Source: Marmoricola sp. (lineage in GTDB: Bacteria > Actinomycetota > Actinomycetes > Propionibacteriales > Nocardioidaceae). From it: DNA of 64,000 nt. The notes below the pieces were generated by a model. It did not search any database, was not told the origin of the DNA, and saw only the letters and a program-made list of their open reading frames with translations. The translations under genes were made by a program, and so were the position numbers. The stretch is taken from contig JAOPYE010000014.1 of assembly GCA_025964775.1 (NCBI GenBank), positions 62,001-126,000 of the forward strand, read 5' to 3'. The first letter of the stretch is position 1. Each line of letters begins with the position of its first letter. Below are positions 6,486-16,747 of the stretch, in pieces.

Positions 6486-8444
6486 TCAACCCGCGTGCAC
6501 GTGCGGCCGGCGCCTCGGGTCCGGCTCGGCCCGGCGGATGACCTCACGCGTCACCGGGGCGACCTCGCCGACACCGAAGAGCAGGAAGCGGACCAGGTTC
6601 GGGATCGGGCTGCCCTCGGTCCACTCGAAGTAGATGTGCGGTCGGACACCGGTCACGTCGCGGATGTGCAGGAGTACCGCTGCGAGCGCGTTCGGCACCG
6701 TGGGTGAGGAGAAGGTGAGGACACGGAACTTGTCGTGCAGCACGGCACCACTGACTTCGATGACCGATTCGAAGTCCGAGGGGTCGGTGAGGGTGACTTC
6801 CATGAACAGGATGTCCTGAGCGTCGGGCAGGTCGTTGTCGTCGAGGATCTGGGCTGCCTTGCGGCGGTACTCCTCACGGTCGCGCGCATCGGGCTCGTTG
6901 GCCACGATCCGGATGCTGCGCCGGGCGCAGTCGCGCAGGAACAGCTCCGCAGTCGGGTCGAGCTGGACCTCCGTGGTCCGCAGCTCGAAGGCGCGCAGGA
7001 CCCGCGAGGCGATCGAGAGCACCACGATCGCCACGATGAACAGCGTGCCGATCTTCAGACCGTCGGGACGTTCCCTGATGTTGTCCGCCGTCGTGTACAC
7101 GAAGACCGCGGCGATCACGGCAAAGGCCGTCATGAGCTTGCGCTGGCCTGCCCGGCGGGCTGACAGGCTCACCGCGACTGCGGCGGAGGTCATCAGGACG
7201 AGGACACCCGTGGCATAGGCACCACCCTGGGCGTTGACGTCGGCCTTGAAGATGATGGTGATTGCGAGCGCGATTGCTGTGAGGATCATGACCAGGGGCC
7301 GCACTGCACCGGTCCATTCCGGTGCCATCCCGTACCGGGGCAGGTACCGAGGGATCAGGTTGAGCATGCCGGCCATCGCCGAGGCGCCGGCGAACCACAG
7401 GATGGCGATGGTCGAGACGTCGTACACGGTCCCGAAGCCGTTGCCCAGGTACTGGTGGGCCAGATAGGCCAGGGCACGACCGGAGGCCTTGCCGCCGTCC
7501 TGGAACTGCCGTTGCGGGATGAGCCACGTGCAGACCAGGCTGCTGGCGATCAGGTACAGGCTCATGATCACCGCGGCGGTGGCCAGGAGCTTGCGGGTGT
7601 TGCGGATCCGTCCGGTGGGCTGCTCCTCGGTGTCATCCGGGTCGCCCTCGACGTGGGACATCACCGCAACCCCGGTCTCGAACCCGGACATGCCGAGGGC
7701 AAGCTTCGGGAACAGCAACAGCGAGACACCGATCATCGCCAACGGACTGCTGTGCTGGACCTTCAGGAGGTCGACCCAGTCACCGACCACGTGCGGGTGC
7801 ATGCCGACGTGCCAGAACGCGACCGCCACGACGACCAGGTTGAGGGCCAGGTAGATCACGACGAGAACGACCGCAACGCCGATCGCCTCGCCGAAGCCGC
7901 GCAGGAAGACAACTCCGAGCAGGCCGACCAGCGCCAGCGTGATGATGATCGCGTGGCCGTTGATGAACGACGGCACGTTCGGGTTCTCGACGAGGTGCGC
8001 GGCGGCGTCGGCCGCCGAGAGCGTGATCGTGATCATGAAGTCGGTCAGTGCGAACCCGAGCAGGGCCAGCACGAACAGCTTGCCGCGCCAGAACGGCAGC
8101 AGCCTCTCCAGCATCGCGATCGAGCCCTGGCCGTGCGGGCTCTCGACGGCGACCCGGCGGTAGACGGGGAGTGCGCCGAAGAGGGTCAGCAGCACCAGGA
8201 CCACGGTCGCGACCGGAGCGAGCGCGCCGGCCGCGAGGGCGGCGATGCCGGGCTGGTAGCCGAGTGTCGAGAAGTAGTCGACACCGGTCAGGCACATCAC
8301 CTTCCACCACGGCTCGCGGTGCTCGTCGTGGCGTTCGTCGGCGTACGGGCCGACATGCTCGTCCGAGCTCGAACCGATCCCACCGAAGAACCACGCCTTC
8401 AACGGTCCACGTTTCACGGCCGGAGCCGCCGAAGGCAAGGTCAC
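6486..8444 (-). CDS. APC-superfamily permease (possible potassium or amino-acid transporter)
   Basis: About 652 residues with about 12 predicted membrane helices. The first conserved segment, [17 protein letters not shown], sits where APC transporters have their substrate-binding TM1. A C-terminal cytoplasmic domain of about 170 residues follows (from about [11 protein letters not shown]). Annotated relatives are usually called amino-acid permeases. Its placement, divergent from kdp and sharing a repeat-bearing promoter, makes K+ uptake (KimA-like) plausible by inference. The frame opens with a TTG at 8468. I prefer GTG 8444 because TTCGAT ends 6 nt upstream, in the leaderless geometry seen across the window, and this keeps the GTTAGG repeats upstream of transcription. 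GTG 8417 is another option. Confidence 0.85.
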
Positions 8445-8472
8445 GCACCCATCGAACCATCCGCGCAATAGC

Positions 8473-8500
8473 CCTAACGAAGTCCTAACAGATTCCTAAC
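8473..8500 (-). promoter_or_regulatory. Triple GTTAGG direct repeat, 11-bp period, toward the APC permease
   Basis: On the minus strand GTTAGG occurs three times (8500-8495, 8489-8484, 8478-8473), each exactly 11 bp apart. Direct hexamer repeats at one helical turn are the usual binding pattern of OmpR/PhoB-family regulators. KdpE, encoded 7.5 kb downstream, belongs to that family. The last copy ends 16 nt before a TTCGAT hexamer that itself ends 6 nt before GTG 8444, which is activator-like spacing. Binding by KdpE is inference. Confidence 0.65.
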
Positions 8501-8533
8501 GTGGGTCTGCCCACACCGGCCTGTCGGTGCTTC

Positions 8534-8574
8534 GTCAGGATTCGGGGTGGGGTGGTCAGGGTTCCGTTAGGAAC
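8534..8574 (+). promoter_or_regulatory. GTYAGG direct repeats on the 11-bp grid toward the kdp operon
   Basis: On the plus strand GTCAGG (8534-8539), GTCAGG (8555-8560) and GTTAGG (8566-8571) are spaced 21 and 11 bp. They point toward the first kdp-operon gene and mirror the minus-strand repeats upstream of the permease. The last copy sits inside the palindrome GTTCCGTTAGGAAC (8561-8574). A TTCGCT hexamer (8599-8604) ends 6 nt before ATG 8611. The shared motif and opposite orientation suggest one response regulator serves both promoters. Confidence 0.6.
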
Positions 8575-8610
8575 CTCGATCCGGGCTCGATCAGGGCGTT
8601 CGCTGGTCTC

Positions 8611-8979
8611 ATGACTAGTGAGACCCGACCGCGGATGGTCGACGAACCCGGGGTGCTGTTCGGGATCGCGACCGGAACCGTCGTCGCCACCGACCTGCTC
8701 GCCGGAGCCTTCACGCTCCCGCCGGTACCCACCGCCCTCGTGCTCGTGATCGTCGCCGGACTGTTCGGCGCCCGGCTCCGGGTGCTCCTGGCGGCAGCGC
8801 TGGGTGTGATCGCCTGGGCGTTCTACACCGGGTTCACCGAGAACCGGTTCGGGCAGCTGACCCTGGCCACCGGCGACCTGACCCGCATCGGCGCCTTCGT
8901 CGCCGGCGCACTCGCGGTTGCCCTGATGATCCGCCGGGTCCAGACCTCGACCCACGGAGCGGAGGTGCGTCATGGGTGA
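8611..8979 (+). CDS. Small four-helix membrane protein resembling the KdpD DUF4118 module
   Basis: 122 residues with four hydrophobic segments (about 13-35, 38-53, 57-76, 88-108). The second half can be laid by eye against the DUF4118 membrane domain of the KdpD encoded at 13530: AAALGVIAWAFYTGF against AVAGSMLLNFFFTPP, then LTLATGDLTRIGAFV against LSIRDTNNALALIVF. I therefore read it as a free-standing DUF4118-like protein, a membrane sensor half without kinase. It is the first gene of the kdp operon and overlaps the next ORF by 8 nt. The ATG is preferred to an upstream GTG at 8527 because the 8527-8610 part codes for no conserved sequence and contains the repeat operator. Confidence 0.72.
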   Translation: MTSETRPRMVDEPGVLFGIATGTVVATDLLAGAFTLPPVPTALVLVIVAGLFGARLRVLLAAALGVIAWAFYTGFTENRFGQLTLATGDLTRIGAFVAGALAVALMIRRVQTSTHGAEVRHG

Positions 8980-9055
8980 CGTCACCTACCTGGCCATCAC
9001 CATCGGCCTGTTCCTGCTCATCCTCCTGGTCCTGAAAGGCGTCGACCTGCTGTGA
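8972..9055 (+). CDS. 27-residue membrane peptide in the kdp operon
   Basis: A short ORF starts at ATG 8972 behind GGAGGTGCG, overlapping the upstream gene by 8 nt and the kdpF start by 4 nt. It encodes MGDVTYLAITIG followed by a leucine-rich membrane helix ending LKGVDLL. Tight overlap on both sides and a full-length hydrophobic helix argue that it is translated. It is distinct from KdpF, which follows directly. It may be an extra single-helix subunit or regulator of the Kdp pump. Function unknown. Confidence 0.65.
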   Translation: MGDVTYLAITIGLFLLILLVLKGVDLL

Positions 9056-9141
9056 GCCCTCAGAACCTGATCGGTCTCATCCTGTCCATCCTGATCTTCG
9101 GCTACCTGGTGGTCGCCCTCCTCTTCCCGGAGCGTTTCTGA
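9052..9141 (+). CDS. kdpF: KdpF, small subunit of the K+-transporting ATPase
   Basis: 29 residues from GTG 9052 ([14 protein letters not shown] followed by [15 protein letters not shown]). The YLxxALLxPERF ending is the KdpF hallmark. KdpF is a single-helix peptide that stabilises the KdpFABC complex in the membrane. The start overlaps the stop of the preceding micropeptide (GTGA), and the stop lies one base before the kdpA start, so translation is coupled throughout. Confidence 0.9.
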
Positions 9142-9142
9142 C

Positions 9143-10800
9143 ATGTCCGACACCACAGCCGGCCTCCTCCAGGCCGGCGCACTGATCGCTGCCCTCGCGC
9201 TCTGCTGGCGGCCGCTCGGCGACTACATGGCCAGAGTCGTGACGAGCGAGAAGGACCTCCGCGTGGAGCGCGGGATCTACCGCGTCATCGGGGTCGACTC
9301 GAAGTCGGACCAGCGCTGGTCGGTGTACGCCGCCTCGGTGGTCGCGTTCGCCTTCGTGGGCGTGGTCGTGCTCTACGTGATCCAGCGCGTCCAGGCACAC
9401 CTGCCTCTGTCGCTGGGCTTCAAGGGCGTGGACCCGGCACTCGCGTTCAACACCGCTGCGTCGTTTGTGACCAACACCAACTGGCAGGCCTACTCCGGTG
9501 AGTCGACCATGGGCCACGTCGCCCAGATGGCCGGCCTCGCCGTCCAGAACTTCATCTCCGCGGCGGTAGGCATCGCTGTCGCCGTCGCGCTGATCCGTGG
9601 TTTCGTCCGCTCGCGCTCCGACCGGCTGGGGAACTTCTGGGTCGACACGATCCGGATCATCATCCGGGTACTGCTGCCGCTCTCGGTGCTGGCGGCGATC
9701 GCCCTGATCCTGATGGGTGCGATCCAGAACTTCTCCACCGGGACCGATGTCACCACGTTGCTCGGCCACCACCAGACGATCACCGGTGGCCCGGTCGCCT
9801 CCCAGGAGGCGATCAAGGAGCTCGGCACGAACGGTGGCGGGTTCTACAACGCCAACTCGGCGCACCCGTTCGAGAATCCGACCGCCCTGAGCAATTGGTT
9901 CGAGAACTTCCTGCTGCTGTTGATCCCGGTCGCGCTGACCCGGACCTTCGGCACGATGGTCGGTGACCGTCGCCAGGGGATCGCACTCGTCTCGGTCATG
10001 GCTGCGCTCTGGGGCACGCTCGTCGTCGCCGTGACCACCTTCGAGGTGCACCACCACGGCACCGCGCTGCAGGCCGCCGGCGCCGCGATGGAAGGCAAGG
10101 AGACCCGCTTCGGTGAATGGGCCTCGGCGCTGTTCGCCGTGTCGACCACCGGCACCTCGACCGGCGCGGTCAACTCGTTCCACTCCTCGTTCACCGGTCT
10201 GGGCGGGGGTGCGCTGATCCTGAACATGGGCCTGGGCGAGATCTCCCCGGGCGGCGTCGGGTCCGGCATCTACGGCATCCTGGTCCTCGCGATCATGACC
10301 GTGTTCGTCGCCGGTCTGATGGTCGGCCGAACCCCGGAGTACCTGCACAAGAAGATCACCGGCCGCGAGATCAAGCTGGTCTCGCTCTACATCCTCACGA
10401 TGCCGGTGATCGTGCTGGTCGGGACGGGCATCGCGATGTCCTTCGCGACGCCGCGCGCGTCGATGTTGAACGCCGGTCCGCACGGCCTGTCCGAGGTGCT
10501 CTACAGCTTCATGTCGGCGACCAACAACAACGGATCCGCCTTCGCCGGGTTGTCGGCCAACACCCCGTTCTACAACGTCGCACTCGGGATCGCGATGCTG
10601 CTCGGCAGGATCCTGCCGATGCTCTTCGTGCTCGGTCTTGCCGGCTCGCTCGGTCAGCAGCAGAAGATCCCGAAGACACCCGGCACGCTGCCGACCCACG
10701 GTCCGCTCTTCATCGGGATGCTCATCGGCGTCGCCGTGATTGTCGCCGGGCTGACCTTCTTCCCAGTTCTTGCACTTGGTCCTCTTGCGGAAGGTTTGTG

Positions 10801-10801
<1 letters not shown>
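9143..10801 (+). CDS. kdpA: Potassium-transporting ATPase subunit A
   Basis: 552 residues, the normal KdpA length. The channel-like subunit binds and selects K+. Four selectivity-filter-like loops are visible, including [46 protein letters not shown] and [14 protein letters not shown]. The first (NTNWQ) and second (TNGGG) are diagnostic. Multiple membrane helices span the whole length. The stop shares bases with the kdpB start (TGATG). Confidence 0.98.
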
Positions 10802-12906
<2,105 letters not shown>

Positions 12907-12916
12907 AAGGCATCTC

Positions 12917-13507
12917 GTGTTGACTTCCGTACTCCGCCAGCTCTGGCCCTCGGTCCGGGCGATGCTGGTCCTCACCGTCCTGGTGGGCATCGCCTACCCG
13001 CTGGTCCTGACCGGGTTCGCCCAGGTCGTCGTCCACGACAAGGCCAACGGCTCGCTGATCAAGCAGGACGGCAAGCTCGTCGGGTCGTCGCTGATCGGGC
13101 AGTCGTTCGACGGGAAGCCGCAGTACTTCCAGTCACGTCCGTCGGCGGCCGGCGCCGGCTACGACCCGCTCGCGAGCGGCGCCTCGAACCTCGGCCCGGA
13201 GAGTCCCGTGCTGATCAAGGCGATCAAGGATCGACGTGCGGCGGCGGTCAAGCTCGACGGCACCGCGCCGGCCGACGTCGCTCCGGACGCGCTGGAAGCG
13301 AGCGGTTCGGGACTGGACCCGGACATCAGTCCGCTCTACGCCTCCCAGCAGGTCGATCGGGTCGCCCGCGAACGCGGGATGACGGTCGCGGCGGTACGGG
13401 CTCTCGTGGCCAGGTACACCTACGGACGCAGCCTTGGCTTCCTGGGCGAGCCGCACGTGAACGTCCTCCAGCTCAACCTCGCGCTCGATCGCGCGACCAA
13501 CCAGTAG
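12917..13507 (+). CDS. kdpC: Potassium-transporting ATPase subunit C
   Basis: 196 residues. One N-terminal membrane helix (about 12-35) is followed by an extracytoplasmic domain with the KdpC hallmarks GSSLIGQSF, YFQSRPSAAG..YDPLASGASNLGP and LEASGSGLDPDISPLYA. KdpC assists K+ binding in the KdpFABC complex. The start is GTG 12917, preceded by GAAAGG at 12904-12909 as ribosome site. It lies 10 nt after kdpB in the same operon. Confidence 0.97.
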   Translation: MLTSVLRQLWPSVRAMLVLTVLVGIAYPLVLTGFAQVVVHDKANGSLIKQDGKLVGSSLIGQSFDGKPQYFQSRPSAAGAGYDPLASGASNLGPESPVLIKAIKDRRAAAVKLDGTAPADVAPDALEASGSGLDPDISPLYASQQVDRVARERGMTVAAVRALVARYTYGRSLGFLGEPHVNVLQLNLALDRATNQ

Positions 13508-13529: not shown

Positions 13530-16076
13530 GTGGGATCCCGCGGAAAGCTCAGGGTCTACCTCGGCGCAGCACCGGGGGTGGGCAAGACCTACGCCATGCT
13601 GGGCGAGGGTCACCGCCGGGCTGCCCGCGGCACCGACGTCGCCATCGGCTTCGTCGAGACCCATGGGCGCCAGCACACCGCGGACATGATCGACGGGCTC
13701 GAGGTCATCGGTCGACGGACGATGACCTATCGGGGTGCCGAGTTCACCGAGATGGACCTCGACGCCATCCTGGCCCGTCATCCGAAGGTCGCGCTCGTCG
13801 ACGAGCTCGCGCACACGAATGTGCCCGGTGGTCGCAACGAGAAGCGCTGGCAGGACGTCGAGGAGCTGCTCGCGGCCGGGATCGAGGTGATCACGACCGT
13901 CAACGTGCAGCACCTCGAATCGGTCAACGACGTCGTCGAGAAGATCACCGGGATCGTCCAGAACGAGACGGTGCCCGACGCCGTGGTCCGGGCCGCCGAC
14001 CAGATCGAGCTGCGGGACATGACCGCCGAGGCGCTCCGGCGCCGGCTTGCGCACGGCAACGTGTACGCGCCGGAGAAGATCGATGCGGCGCTGTCGAACT
14101 ACTTCCGCGCCGGCAACCTCAACGCCCTGCGCGAACTGGCGTTGCTGTGGACGGCAGACCGGGTCGACGACGCCCTCCAGGAATACCGCGAGCAGCACGA
14201 CATCGACAGCACCTGGGAGGCCCGCGAACGCGTGGTCGTCGCCCTCACCGGTGGCCCCGAGGGCGAGACCTTGATCCGGCGTGCAGCCAGGGTCGCAGCG
14301 AGGTCCAGCGGCGGTGACCTGCTGGCCGTGCACGTGGCTCGCTCGGATGGTCTGGCCTCGGTTGACCAAGGCTCGCTGGCACGCCAGCGCCTTCTCGTCG
14401 AGTCCCTGGGCGGGACCTATCACCAGGTGCTGGGGGACAGCGTCGCCCAGGCACTCCTGGTCTTCGCGCGGGCTGAGAACGCAACCCAGCTCGTGCTGGG
14501 CGACAGCCGGCGACCGGCCTGGAAGCGGCTGCTCGGTCAAGGCACCGCGGCGTCGGTGATCCGGGAGTCCGGCGACATCGACGTGCACATCGTCACGCAT
14601 CGCCAGGTCGGTCGCGGCATCGCGCTCCCGATCGCGCGCGGCAGTCTGGGTCTGCGCCGCCGACTGCGGGGCTATGCCGTCGCCGTGCTCTTCCCACCGT
14701 TGCTCACGGCCATGCTGATTCCGGTGCGCGGTCAGCTGAACCTCGTCAGCGACATGCTGCTGTTCCTGCTGCTGACGGTGGTCGTGGCGCTGATCGGCGG
14801 GTTGTCGCCGGCGCTGATCGCCGCCGTCGCGGGGTCGATGCTCCTCAATTTCTTCTTCACCCCACCGCTGCACACGTTGTCGATCCGCGATACCAACAAC
14901 GCGCTGGCCCTGATCGTCTTCATCCTGGTGGCGATGCTGGTCTCCTCGGCGGTGGACCTCGCGGCACGACGTACCCGCGAGGCGGCGCGGTCGGCGGCCG
15001 AGTCGCGCACGCTGGCCAATCTCGCCGGAAGCGTGCTGGCCGGCTCCGGTGCGCTCACCGAGATGCTCGAACGCGTCCGCGAGACGTTCGGGCTCACCTC
15101 GGTCGCGCTGGTGGAGAAGGGTGAGGACGGTGCTGCCCCGACGATCCGCGCGTGCGCCGGACCTGCCCCGTCGAAACCGGGAGACCCCGACGCGCAGGTC
15201 GCCGTCGGCCCCGGGATGGTGCTCGCCCTGCACGGCAAGCTGCTCCAGGCCCAGGACCAGCGGCTGCTCGGTGCGTTCGCGGCCCAGGTGGCGGTCGTCC
15301 TGGACCGGACCCGACTGGCCGAGGAAGCCGCGGCGGCAGCGCCGCTGGCCGAGGCGAACAAGATGCGTACGGCGCTGCTGGCCGCGGTTGGTCACGACCT
15401 GCGGACGCCGCTCGCGGCGGCCAAGGCGTCCGTCTCCAGCCTGCGCAGTGCCGACATCGAGCTCGAGAACGCCGATCGACGTGAGTTGCTCGCGGCCGCC
15501 GATGAGTCGCTGGACAAGCTGGCGGCCCTGGTGGACAACCTGCTCGACATGAGCCGTCTCCAGGCCGGGGCGCTGGCGATCGATGTCGAGCCGGTGGCGC
15601 TCGACGAGGTGATCGCCCGCGCGATCGATGATCTCGGCGCCGGCACGGACGCCGTCCTGGTCGACCTTGCCGAGGACCTGCCGCTCGTCCTGGCGGACGC
15701 CGGTCTGGTCGAGCGCGTGCTGGCGAACCTGGTGGCCAACGCAGCTCGGTACGCACCGGCCAGCTGCCCGCCCCGCGTCACCGGGAGCGTGCTCGACGAC
15801 AGGGTCCAGGTCCGGGTGGTGGATCAGGGCCCGGGCATCCCTGCCGAAGACCGCGAACGGGTCTTCCTGCCGTTCCAGCGGATGGGGGACAACGACAACA
15901 CCACCGGGATCGGCCTGGGCCTGGCGCTCTCGCGCGGCCTGACCGAGGCGATGAACGGAACCCTGGAACCCGAAGAGACCCCCGGGGGCGGCCTGACGAT
16001 GGTGATGACCCTGCCGACCGCCCCGGCCGGTGTGGGTTCGCCCGGCCACCGCGAGCGCACCGAGGCGTCCCAGTGA
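13530..16076 (+). CDS. kdpD: Osmosensitive K+ channel sensor histidine kinase KdpD
   Basis: 848 residues, membrane-bound. Domain order: KdpD N-terminal domain with Walker A GAAPGVGKT (12-20) and DELAHTN; a USP-like domain (about 230-360); four-helix DUF4118 membrane module (about 385-490); GAF-like segment; HisKA with phospho-acceptor His622 in GHDLRTPLA; HATPase_c with GPGIPAEDRERVF and GIGLGLALS. It senses K+/ionic status and phosphorylates KdpE. GTG 13530 follows AAGGA. The kdpE start overlaps its stop by 4 nt. Confidence 0.97.
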   Translation: MGSRGKLRVYLGAAPGVGKTYAMLGEGHRRAARGTDVAIGFVETHGRQHTADMIDGLEVIGRRTMTYRGAEFTEMDLDAILARHPKVALVDELAHTNVPGGRNEKRWQDVEELLAAGIEVITTVNVQHLESVNDVVEKITGIVQNETVPDAVVRAADQIELRDMTAEALRRRLAHGNVYAPEKIDAALSNYFRAGNLNALRELALLWTADRVDDALQEYREQHDIDSTWEARERVVVALTGGPEGETLIRRAARVAARSSGGDLLAVHVARSDGLASVDQGSLARQRLLVESLGGTYHQVLGDSVAQALLVFARAENATQLVLGDSRRPAWKRLLGQGTAASVIRESGDIDVHIVTHRQVGRGIALPIARGSLGLRRRLRGYAVAVLFPPLLTAMLIPVRGQLNLVSDMLLFLLLTVVVALIGGLSPALIAAVAGSMLLNFFFTPPLHTLSIRDTNNALALIVFILVAMLVSSAVDLAARRTREAARSAAESRTLANLAGSVLAGSGALTEMLERVRETFGLTSVALVEKGEDGAAPTIRACAGPAPSKPGDPDAQVAVGPGMVLALHGKLLQAQDQRLLGAFAAQVAVVLDRTRLAEEAAAAAPLAEANKMRTALLAAVGHDLRTPLAAAKASVSSLRSADIELENADRRELLAAADESLDKLAALVDNLLDMSRLQAGALAIDVEPVALDEVIARAIDDLGAGTDAVLVDLAEDLPLVLADAGLVERVLANLVANAARYAPASCPPRVTGSVLDDRVQVRVVDQGPGIPAEDRERVFLPFQRMGDNDNTTGIGLGLALSRGLTEAMNGTLEPEETPGGGLTMVMTLPTAPAGVGSPGHRERTEASQ

Positions 16077-16747
16077 CGACGGTGCTGGTCGTCGACGACG
16101 AGCCGCAGCTGTTGCGGGCCCTGCGGATCAACCTGCGGGCGCGCGGGTACGACGTACAGGCCGCGGCGACGGGAACCGACGCCCTCAAGCTGGCCGCGGC
16201 GCACCCGCCGGACATCGTGGTGCTCGACCTGGGTCTGCCCGACATGGATGGTACCGAGGTCGTGGCCGGACTGCGCGGCTGGACCGACGTACCGATCCTG
16301 GTGCTCTCGGGTCGGACCGACAGCGGCGACAAGGTCGATGCCCTGGACGCCGGGGCCGACGACTACGTCACCAAGCCGTTCGGGATGGACGAGCTGCTTG
16401 CTCGGATGCGCGCGATGGTCCGCCGCAGCACCGGCAAGGAGGAGCAGCCGATCGTCAGCTTCGGTCCGAACGTCGTCGACCTGGCTGCCCGCCGGGTGAC
16501 CCGGGACGACCAGGACGTCCGGCTGACGCCGACCGAGTGGCACCTGCTCGAGGTGCTGGTGCGCAATCCCGGCAAGCTGATGAGCCAGAAGCAGCTGCTG
16601 CTCGAGGTGTGGGGGCCGGGCTATGAGACCGCGCGCGGCAACCTGCGGCTCTACATGGGCCAGCTGCGCCGCAAGCTGGAGGTCGATCCCGCCCGGCCCG
16701 AGCACCTGATCAACGAGCCAGGGATGGGGTATCGGTTCGAGCCGTAG
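16073..16747 (+). CDS. kdpE: KDP operon response regulator KdpE (OmpR family)
   Basis: 224 residues. The receiver has the acidic pair DDE (8-10), phospho-acceptor Asp52 in VVLDLGLPDMDG and the conserved K of YVTKPFGMDELL. The C-terminal winged helix is of the OmpR/PhoB type (LTPTEWHLLEVLVRNPG, NLRLYMGQLRRKL, EPGMGYRFEP). It is the expected regulator of the kdp promoter, where 11-bp-spaced GTTAGG/GTCAGG repeats lie about 7.5 kb upstream. It overlaps kdpD by 4 nt and ends just before a palindromic repeat unit. Confidence 0.97.
   Translation: MTTVLVVDDEPQLLRALRINLRARGYDVQAAATGTDALKLAAAHPPDIVVLDLGLPDMDGTEVVAGLRGWTDVPILVLSGRTDSGDKVDALDAGADDYVTKPFGMDELLARMRAMVRRSTGKEEQPIVSFGPNVVDLAARRVTRDDQDVRLTPTEWHLLEVLVRNPGKLMSQKQLLLEVWGPGYETARGNLRLYMGQLRRKLEVDPARPEHLINEPGMGYRFEP

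Follow-up and report, generated by a model that had tools for sequence, protein, structure and literature searches.

A putative two-way KdpE operator between a kdp operon and a divergent permease gene in Marmoricola

In the 3.9-Mb Marmoricola genome examined here, a permease gene on the minus strand stands divergent from a kdp unit, orf1-kdpFABC-kdpDE, on the plus strand, and the DNA between them carries short direct repeats facing each gene. This arrangement raises the question of whether one regulator serves both transporters and, if so, what the second one carries. The original prediction proposed that a single OmpR-family regulator, KdpE, acts on the kdp operon and on the permease. Our sequence comparisons support this proposal through the conservation of the repeats, the published layout of KdpE sites and a set of loci that keep the sites where no pump was found. 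Positions 8473-8571 of the window (the whole stretch of 64,000 nucleotides that was analysed) very probably constitute a two-way KdpE operator serving kdp and the permease.

The intergenic repeats and the genes around them

The permease gene occupies 6486..8444 on the minus strand, with a probable GTG start at 8444, and encodes 652 amino acids; the protein is rich in hydrophobic segments, of which a simple hydropathy scan marks 13, some of them overlapping, and its C-terminal part is soluble. On the plus strand, the kdp unit opens with orf1 (8611..8979), which encodes a 122-aa membrane protein resembling DUF4118 below threshold (19.9 bits against a Pfam cut-off of 28.4, E 6e-4). It is followed by a 29-aa frame with a GTG start at 9052..9141, which we take to be kdpF from its ending, and by kdpA at 9143..10801 (PF03814, TIGR00680). 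kdpB is contained in the open frame 10117..12906, whose true start, by eye, lies further in, near 10800; this frame served as the KdpB query. The unit continues with kdpC (12917..13507, PF02669), a full-length kdpD (13530..16076, with the KdpD, Usp, DUF4118, HisKA and HATPase_c domains) and kdpE (16073..16747), which encodes an OmpR-family response regulator with E. coli KdpE among its closest solved structures. A further ORF at 8972-9055, encoding 27 aa with one helix, overlaps the end of orf1 and the start of kdpF; under a strict pattern, a similar ORF precedes kdpA in 5 of 68 loci, the window included. A scan of the window with Rfam at gathering thresholds found no riboswitch or other RNA family.

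Three GTTAGG half-sites on the minus strand, at 8495..8500, 8484..8489 and 8473..8478, lie at -56, -45 and -34 from the permease start, with a step of exactly 11 bp. Facing orf1 on the plus strand are GTCAGG at 8534..8539 (-77), GTCAGG at 8555..8560 (-56) and GTTAGG at 8566..8571 (-45). All six copies can be read directly in the sequence as the original prediction described them, whereas its placement of the kdp-side copies on the same 11-bp grid holds for 8555 and 8566 only, the copy at 8534 being 21 rather than 22 bp from the next. This "missing" base is accounted for by the typical array of the family, which runs 0/11/21/32, that is, two 11-bp pairs set 21 bp apart. The last copy on each side is followed by a -10-like hexamer, TTCGAT at 8451..8456 (minus strand) after 16 nt on the permease side and TTCGCT at 8599..8604 (plus strand) after 27 nt on the kdp side, and each hexamer ends 6 nt before its start codon (GTG at 8444 and ATG at 8611), again as had been noted.

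The repeats are real and far exceed what chance would produce. When 8445-8611 was shuffled 20000 times by dinucleotides, no shuffle reached the six observed GTYAGG copies, none contained two or more 11-bp pairs and two contained one pair, against three pairs observed; nor did any hexamer occur three times at 11-bp steps (0/20000). Across the 3.9-Mb genome, GTYAGG-N5-GTYAGG has seven matches, three of them at this locus, while the reversed control has two. We give practically no credence to the view that the repeats are a chance feature without function: lone GTYAGG copies are indeed frequent, with 26 on each strand of the window, but the shuffles, together with the conservation and fixed spacing described below, speak against it.

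Conservation before kdp operons and permease genes

KdpA was found in 68 of the 149 genomes of the family, and the 800 nt before kdpA were searched at all 68 loci. A motif search of this kind had been proposed with the original prediction, which named a lack of conservation at orthologous loci as evidence against itself; the repeats proved to be conserved at both kdp and permease loci, with exceptions. A GTYARG pair at exactly 11 bp precedes kdpA in 48/68 operons. Within the 6-40 range, the only spacings on the operon strand were 10 (16 loci), 11 (48), 21 (36), 22 (1), 32 (33) and 33 (1), and the other strand gave 11 (10 loci), 15 (1), 22 (4) and 33 (2). The commonest form is a GTCAAG-GTCAAG pair (35/68), and GTYAGG-GTYAGG pairs are found in 14/68. 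A start codon lies 45 or 46 nt past the last half-site in 35 of the 48 operons, the next commonest other offset reaching 11/48; in a partly pre-selected set, the same distance holds for 20/23 loci. The exact GTYARG pair is absent from 20/68 operons. G087 is among these: its KdpE belongs to the GTYAGG-type clade, yet no GTYARG pair precedes its kdpA, so that its operator, if any, differs. Because the loci are related by descent, these counts are not independent.

The permease has a match in 34 of the 149 genomes, one of them weak. For the comparison of loci, G036 (193 nt of upstream sequence only) and G099 (the weak match) were left out, and the second permease copies of G093 and G068 were added, giving 34 loci that were sorted by neighbours found with tblastn. 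The permease is divergent from orf1-kdpFABC-kdpDE at seven loci; from orf1, a full KdpD and KdpE with the pump absent at one (G104); and, at 12, from KdpE and a KdpD-like kinase without the N-terminal part, in genomes with no KdpA match. At seven further loci, the permease, a KdpD-like kinase and KdpE share one orientation; at one (G112), the permease is convergent with the kdp operon; and at six, no KdpE was found nearby, within about 3-8 kb on each side for five of these and within 1.6 kb upstream only for the second G068 copy.

An 11-bp pair faces the permease at 19 of the 20 divergent loci when one half-site is allowed another last base. An ATG or GTG follows this pair at 45-47 nt in 15 loci and at 34 nt in four loci with three copies. 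Strict exact pairs on the permease strand occur at 13/20 divergent loci, the rest requiring a degenerate base or a 22-bp step, and at 5/7 one-orientation loci, 0/1 convergent and 0/6 without KdpE nearby. Among the one-orientation loci with a strict pair, four of five (G093, G053, G071 and G130) have a start codon 45 nt on, and G134 does not; of the remaining two, G098 has a looser pair with a start at 46, and G046 has no pair. In the other direction, a pair faces the KdpE operon at 14/20 divergent loci and is absent in six. G028 is the sole divergent locus with no permease-side sites, its sites facing kdp. Every ATG and GTG at every offset was counted, because taking the first in-frame ATG or GTG gave scattered distances on the permease side, with sites exactly on -34/-45/-56 in just 7/19 loci. 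The commonest single permease-side offset is in fact 37 (12/19), which reflects an ATG formed by the -10-like hexamer and is sometimes in frame. At one locus, G066:C5:73502-75414 (L286), the permease matches two overlapping frames, covering residues 8-424 and 420-652; a true frameshift or an error in the sequencing may be the cause.

With starts chosen by the 34/45/46/47 distance rule, a T stands at -12 in 18/19 permease loci and 32/38 kdp loci, and at -7 in 13/19 and 25/38, respectively. We infer from this pattern that a weak -10 hexamer would occupy -12 to -7, with transcripts beginning at the start codon; hexamers ending 6 nt before the start codons, as in the window, likewise imply leaderless transcripts. 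Searches of 8400-8700 found no sigma-70 promoter (shuffles give 0.1) and no terminator, and the lack of a sigma-70-type promoter there is as expected for an activated one. These observations bear on whether KdpE instead represses the permease while activating kdp, so that the two transporters alternate. For a transcript beginning at the GTG, the -34 permease half-site would cover part of the -35 region, which fits repression. We nevertheless regard repression as improbable, given that most loci show the same start distances (-45/-56) on both sides, that no sigma-70-type promoter was found and that one-orientation loci place both permease and KdpE behind one such site.

KdpE as the candidate regulator

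The best NCBIfam model for the window kdpE is the KdpE equivalog, at 252 bits, below its cut-off of 325, and the protein is close to structures 4kny/4kfc. KdpEs of the divergent loci are 70-96% identical to it (G110 and G107 gave pieces only). A[RQH]GNLRLY stands in the recognition helix of the 18 KdpEs from divergent loci whose DNA-binding domain is complete, and in that of the G024, G004 and G087 proteins; the other 20 KdpEs have [NHG]YLR in its place. Helix type and half-site letters track each other imperfectly, since six operons (G130, G139, G048, G123, G019 and G086) have GTYAGG pairs before kdp with a YLR-type helix; all of these except G130 additionally carry a GTCAAG pair. In the KdpE tree, pump-bearing and pump-less loci are mixed in the part that holds the window KdpE (with starred support for the placement of G006 among pump-less loci), which indicates that forms with and without the pump were interchanged at least once. 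Another 18 KdpEs, from one-orientation and canonical loci, form a supported group (100/97).

According to the accessible part of a study of E. coli KdpE, this regulator binds TTTATA-N5-TTTACA, two 6-bp direct repeats separated by a 5-bp spacer, requires R193 and R200 of the recognition helix and gives a footprint at -72 to -50 (PMC3264566). Arginines of the window KdpE align with both residues. Similarly, the accessible text on M. smegmatis KdpE describes a minimum site of 22 bp that serves kdpFABC with a 120-nt leader (PMC5401905); we read this site as GTAAAG-N5-ATCAAG, two units at an 11-bp step. The window thus resembles the E. coli kdpFABC operator, as far as that source describes it, in its 6-bp direct repeats at an 11-bp step and in a YTNAY core, and the M. 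smegmatis site in the 11-bp step as read here. It differs from the E. coli operator in having two opposed arrays of three half-sites for two genes, in its letters (GTYAGG, reverse CCTRAC), in sites nearer the start and, judging by pattern, in half-sites that point the other way with respect to the gene (PMC3264566). The available text on the M. smegmatis site reports no second transporter target, unlike the situation proposed for the window (PMC5401905). The YTNAY core is common to one strand of the E. coli, M. smegmatis, window and family half-sites; taken alone it is weak evidence, because it is short and was derived from these sites after the fact. The window nonetheless combines the features of a KdpE operator, namely the repeat layout, the core, a kdp operon with its cognate KdpE, and conservation. 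In the literature covered, which was seen in part and excluded most subscription journals, the KdpE operators described are those of the Kdp pump, and nothing there names this permease among the targets of KdpE.

The specificity of the motif was assessed in 23 whole genomes, comprising those of the 20 divergent loci plus G024, G004 and G087. GTYAGG-N5-GTTAGG has 23 matches in 16 of these, all at the permease/kdp/KdpE region by their coordinates, and the reversed control has three. As the genomes were chosen for this locus or for their KdpE type, the telling part is that no match lies elsewhere. Of the seven genomes without a strict match, six have other forms (GTCAGG as the last copy or a degenerate copy), and G087 has none.

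The sites could instead belong to another OmpR-family regulator, for instance of the MtrA or PhoP type. Direct repeats at 11 bp are general for this family of regulators, and GTCAGG pairs occur at four other places in the window's own genome. A start codon follows at 29 nt in three of these four and at 45-46 in none; the L001 pair, with a start codon at 47, falls within the permease-side tolerance and may still qualify. Against this alternative, which we consider very improbable, the sites go with the KdpE gene (0/6 where no KdpE was found nearby), the strict pattern is found nowhere else in the 23 genomes, and the helix and half-site letters mostly, though not always, change together.

Three of the other pairs form a pattern of their own. 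L002, L003 and L007 each show, at 1501-1517, GTCAGG-N5-GTCAGG with an ATG or GTG exactly 29 nt downstream of the first base of the second copy and, by eye, a TAG--T-like hexamer in between. The gene at L003 resembles uppP. These sites perhaps represent a second OmpR-type regulon with leaderless promoters.

With KdpE as the preferred regulator, the locus would function as follows. Phosphorylated KdpE (16073-16747) would bind tandem 11-bp half-sites in two opposed arrays, three facing the permease (-34/-45/-56) and three facing orf1-kdpFABC-kdpDE (-45/-56/-77), and would aid RNA polymerase at two weak promoters, each with a -10-like hexamer that stops 6 nt short of the start codon. Because KdpE would aid both promoters, both transporters would be induced when K+ is low. 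The parts of this model that we infer are the binding of KdpE, its role as an activator and not a repressor, the leaderless starts and K+ import by the permease.

The permease and the loci without a pump

What the permease carries is less evident from its sequence. Neither Pfam, searched up to an E of 10, nor NCBIfam, searched at 0.001, contains a model that matches it; the PDB gave no match to the single sequence or to a profile; and 25 of its orthologs gave no more than isolated weak matches to unrelated models (best E 0.008). A profile of 59 permease members aligned with KimA orthologs by hhalign over 421 columns, with an E of 5e-4 and a probability of 31%; the controls gave 0.016 for an amino acid permease (single sequence), 0.13 for KdpA and 0.2 for reversed KimA. 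As a possible relative, Kup was rejected (E 0.49); KimA against Kup itself gave 0.0066.

The accessible text on KimA describes it as a K+/H+ symporter of the KUP family in B. subtilis, with D36, Y43 and T121 in the K+ site and E233 as the proton-coupling residue (PMC6994465); B. subtilis KimA is also inactivated by c-di-AMP, as stated in the part of another report that was available (PMC10117811). With the published residue numbering (PMC6994465) carried over through an alignment of the KimA ortholog of the window's own genome, KimA D36, Y43, D117, T121 and S125 align, in this weak alignment, with permease D56, Y63, D135, T139 and S143. D56, Y63, T139 and S143 are invariant in the 25 orthologs, and D135 is conserved at 90% or more. 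By eye, E233 has no clear counterpart. The permease therefore resembles KimA in a weak collinear profile match over the membrane part and in agreement at D36/Y43/T121/S125, and differs from it in sharing no Pfam or NCBIfam model and having no sequence match to the KimA PDB entry. The similarity points only weakly to kinship, below proof of homology, and we refrain from assigning the permease to the KUP family; it is perhaps a remote KimA-like symporter. The same genome has a clear KimA ortholog elsewhere, at G000:C40:146990-149017 (L214, L245), with an E of 1e-107 to 6s3k and a match to PF13520, and such orthologs were found in 38 of 39 genomes searched.

We judge it reasonably likely that the permease is a K+ transporter. 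It is possible, though rather doubtful, that the operator is correctly assigned to KdpE while the permease carries something else that is required under K+ shortage, such as an amino acid, a compatible solute or a different cation. The missing family match, the hhalign probability of just 31%, the failure of Kup and the unpaired E233 all leave room for such a substrate. They are set against the alignment of KimA across the membrane part (E 5e-4), which the controls do not reproduce, the invariant D56, Y63, T139 and S143 matching KimA D36, Y43, T121 and S125, and the presence of the permease in 12 genomes in which no KdpA was found.

Those 12 genomes (L113-L118, L120-L124 and L285) keep the permease divergent from a KdpE ortholog, together with the sites; for two of them the absence of KdpA is less sure, because their assemblies are 86-90% complete. 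The retention of permease, sites and regulator in relatives in which no pump was found makes the permease a probable second system for K+ uptake. The kinases adjoining KdpE in these pump-less loci match KdpD only from about residue 326-372 onward (at the one-orientation locus L269 of G046, the kinase matches from residue 233). The three of them that were scanned resemble KdpD in having DUF4118, HisKA and HATPase_c; PF02702, the N-terminal KdpD domain, is absent over the cut-off in all 12 genomes. The four kinases that were scanned, three from pump-less loci and one from a one-orientation locus, have neither PF02702 nor Usp.

Homologs of orf1 accompany the permease in many kdp-less loci, and none was found in G126, G092 and G102. 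The L114 homolog has no match to DUF4118. By eye, five one-orientation loci (G046, G098, G053, G071 and G093) have a small orf1-like membrane frame directly upstream of the permease. From these positions, orf1 may be a partner of the permease or of the kinase.

A wider scan of genome contigs matched at least 587 permease relatives, of which 80 are listed: 10 of Nocardioidaceae type and 70 mostly from Streptomyces/Kitasatospora. Among the matches listed (80 of at least 587), the closest named relatives are Marmoricola/Nocardioides records. In a sample of the phylum, the permease family occurs in 38/396 genomes. Among the 56 listed non-Nocardioidaceae loci with 8-kb flanks, kdp genes occur in the flanks of 24, with kdpA or kdpB in 21 of these; we estimate the chance expectation at well under 1%. 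The flank of one Streptomyces permease, L169, contains scattered kdpA and kdpC fragments upstream, perhaps the remains of a decayed kdp operon.

The 66 listed non-Nocardioidaceae loci that were used for the repeat search (four of the 70, with little upstream DNA, were left out) have CTTRAY pairs, in which the half-site is turned round, at 11 bp directed toward the permease in 21 cases, against one on the other strand; 45/66 have no exact pair. In 19 of the 21, TACGCT, which resembles a -10 hexamer, lies 50 nt downstream of the first base of the second CTTRAY copy. Taking TACGCT as the -10 would place the pair near -73 to -57, comparable to the E. coli footprint of -72 to -50 given in the accessible part of that source (PMC3264566). 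These repeats are assigned to the permease promoter because a search of the divergent side revealed no start at a constant distance. Streptomyces kdp operons have a GTYARG pair in 2 of 11 tested. TTRACG repeats in Streptomyces were considered as a new motif and rejected, being the same half-site read from the other strand.

Whether these loci point to a wider system seems to us evenly balanced. The permease would then found an unrecognised K+-importer family of Actinomycetota, governed by a KdpE-type switch of its own. Several lineages have neither the pump nor the N-terminal sensor half of KdpD, whether lost or never gained, which leaves the permease, a short DUF4118 kinase and KdpE, often with orf1; the KdpDE-type system would there control a secondary transporter rather than the Kdp ATPase, and the window would represent a composite form in which one operator serves both.

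If the proposal is true, a shared KdpE operator would give actinobacteria a second KdpE-controlled route for K+ and would suggest a function for a membrane family whose relatives number at least 587, Streptomyces accounting for most of the 80 listed. It would also raise the question of K+ sensing by a KdpD-like kinase that has no N-terminal sensor. The spacing rule, in turn, supplies a motif with which actinobacterial genomes can be searched for further KdpE targets.
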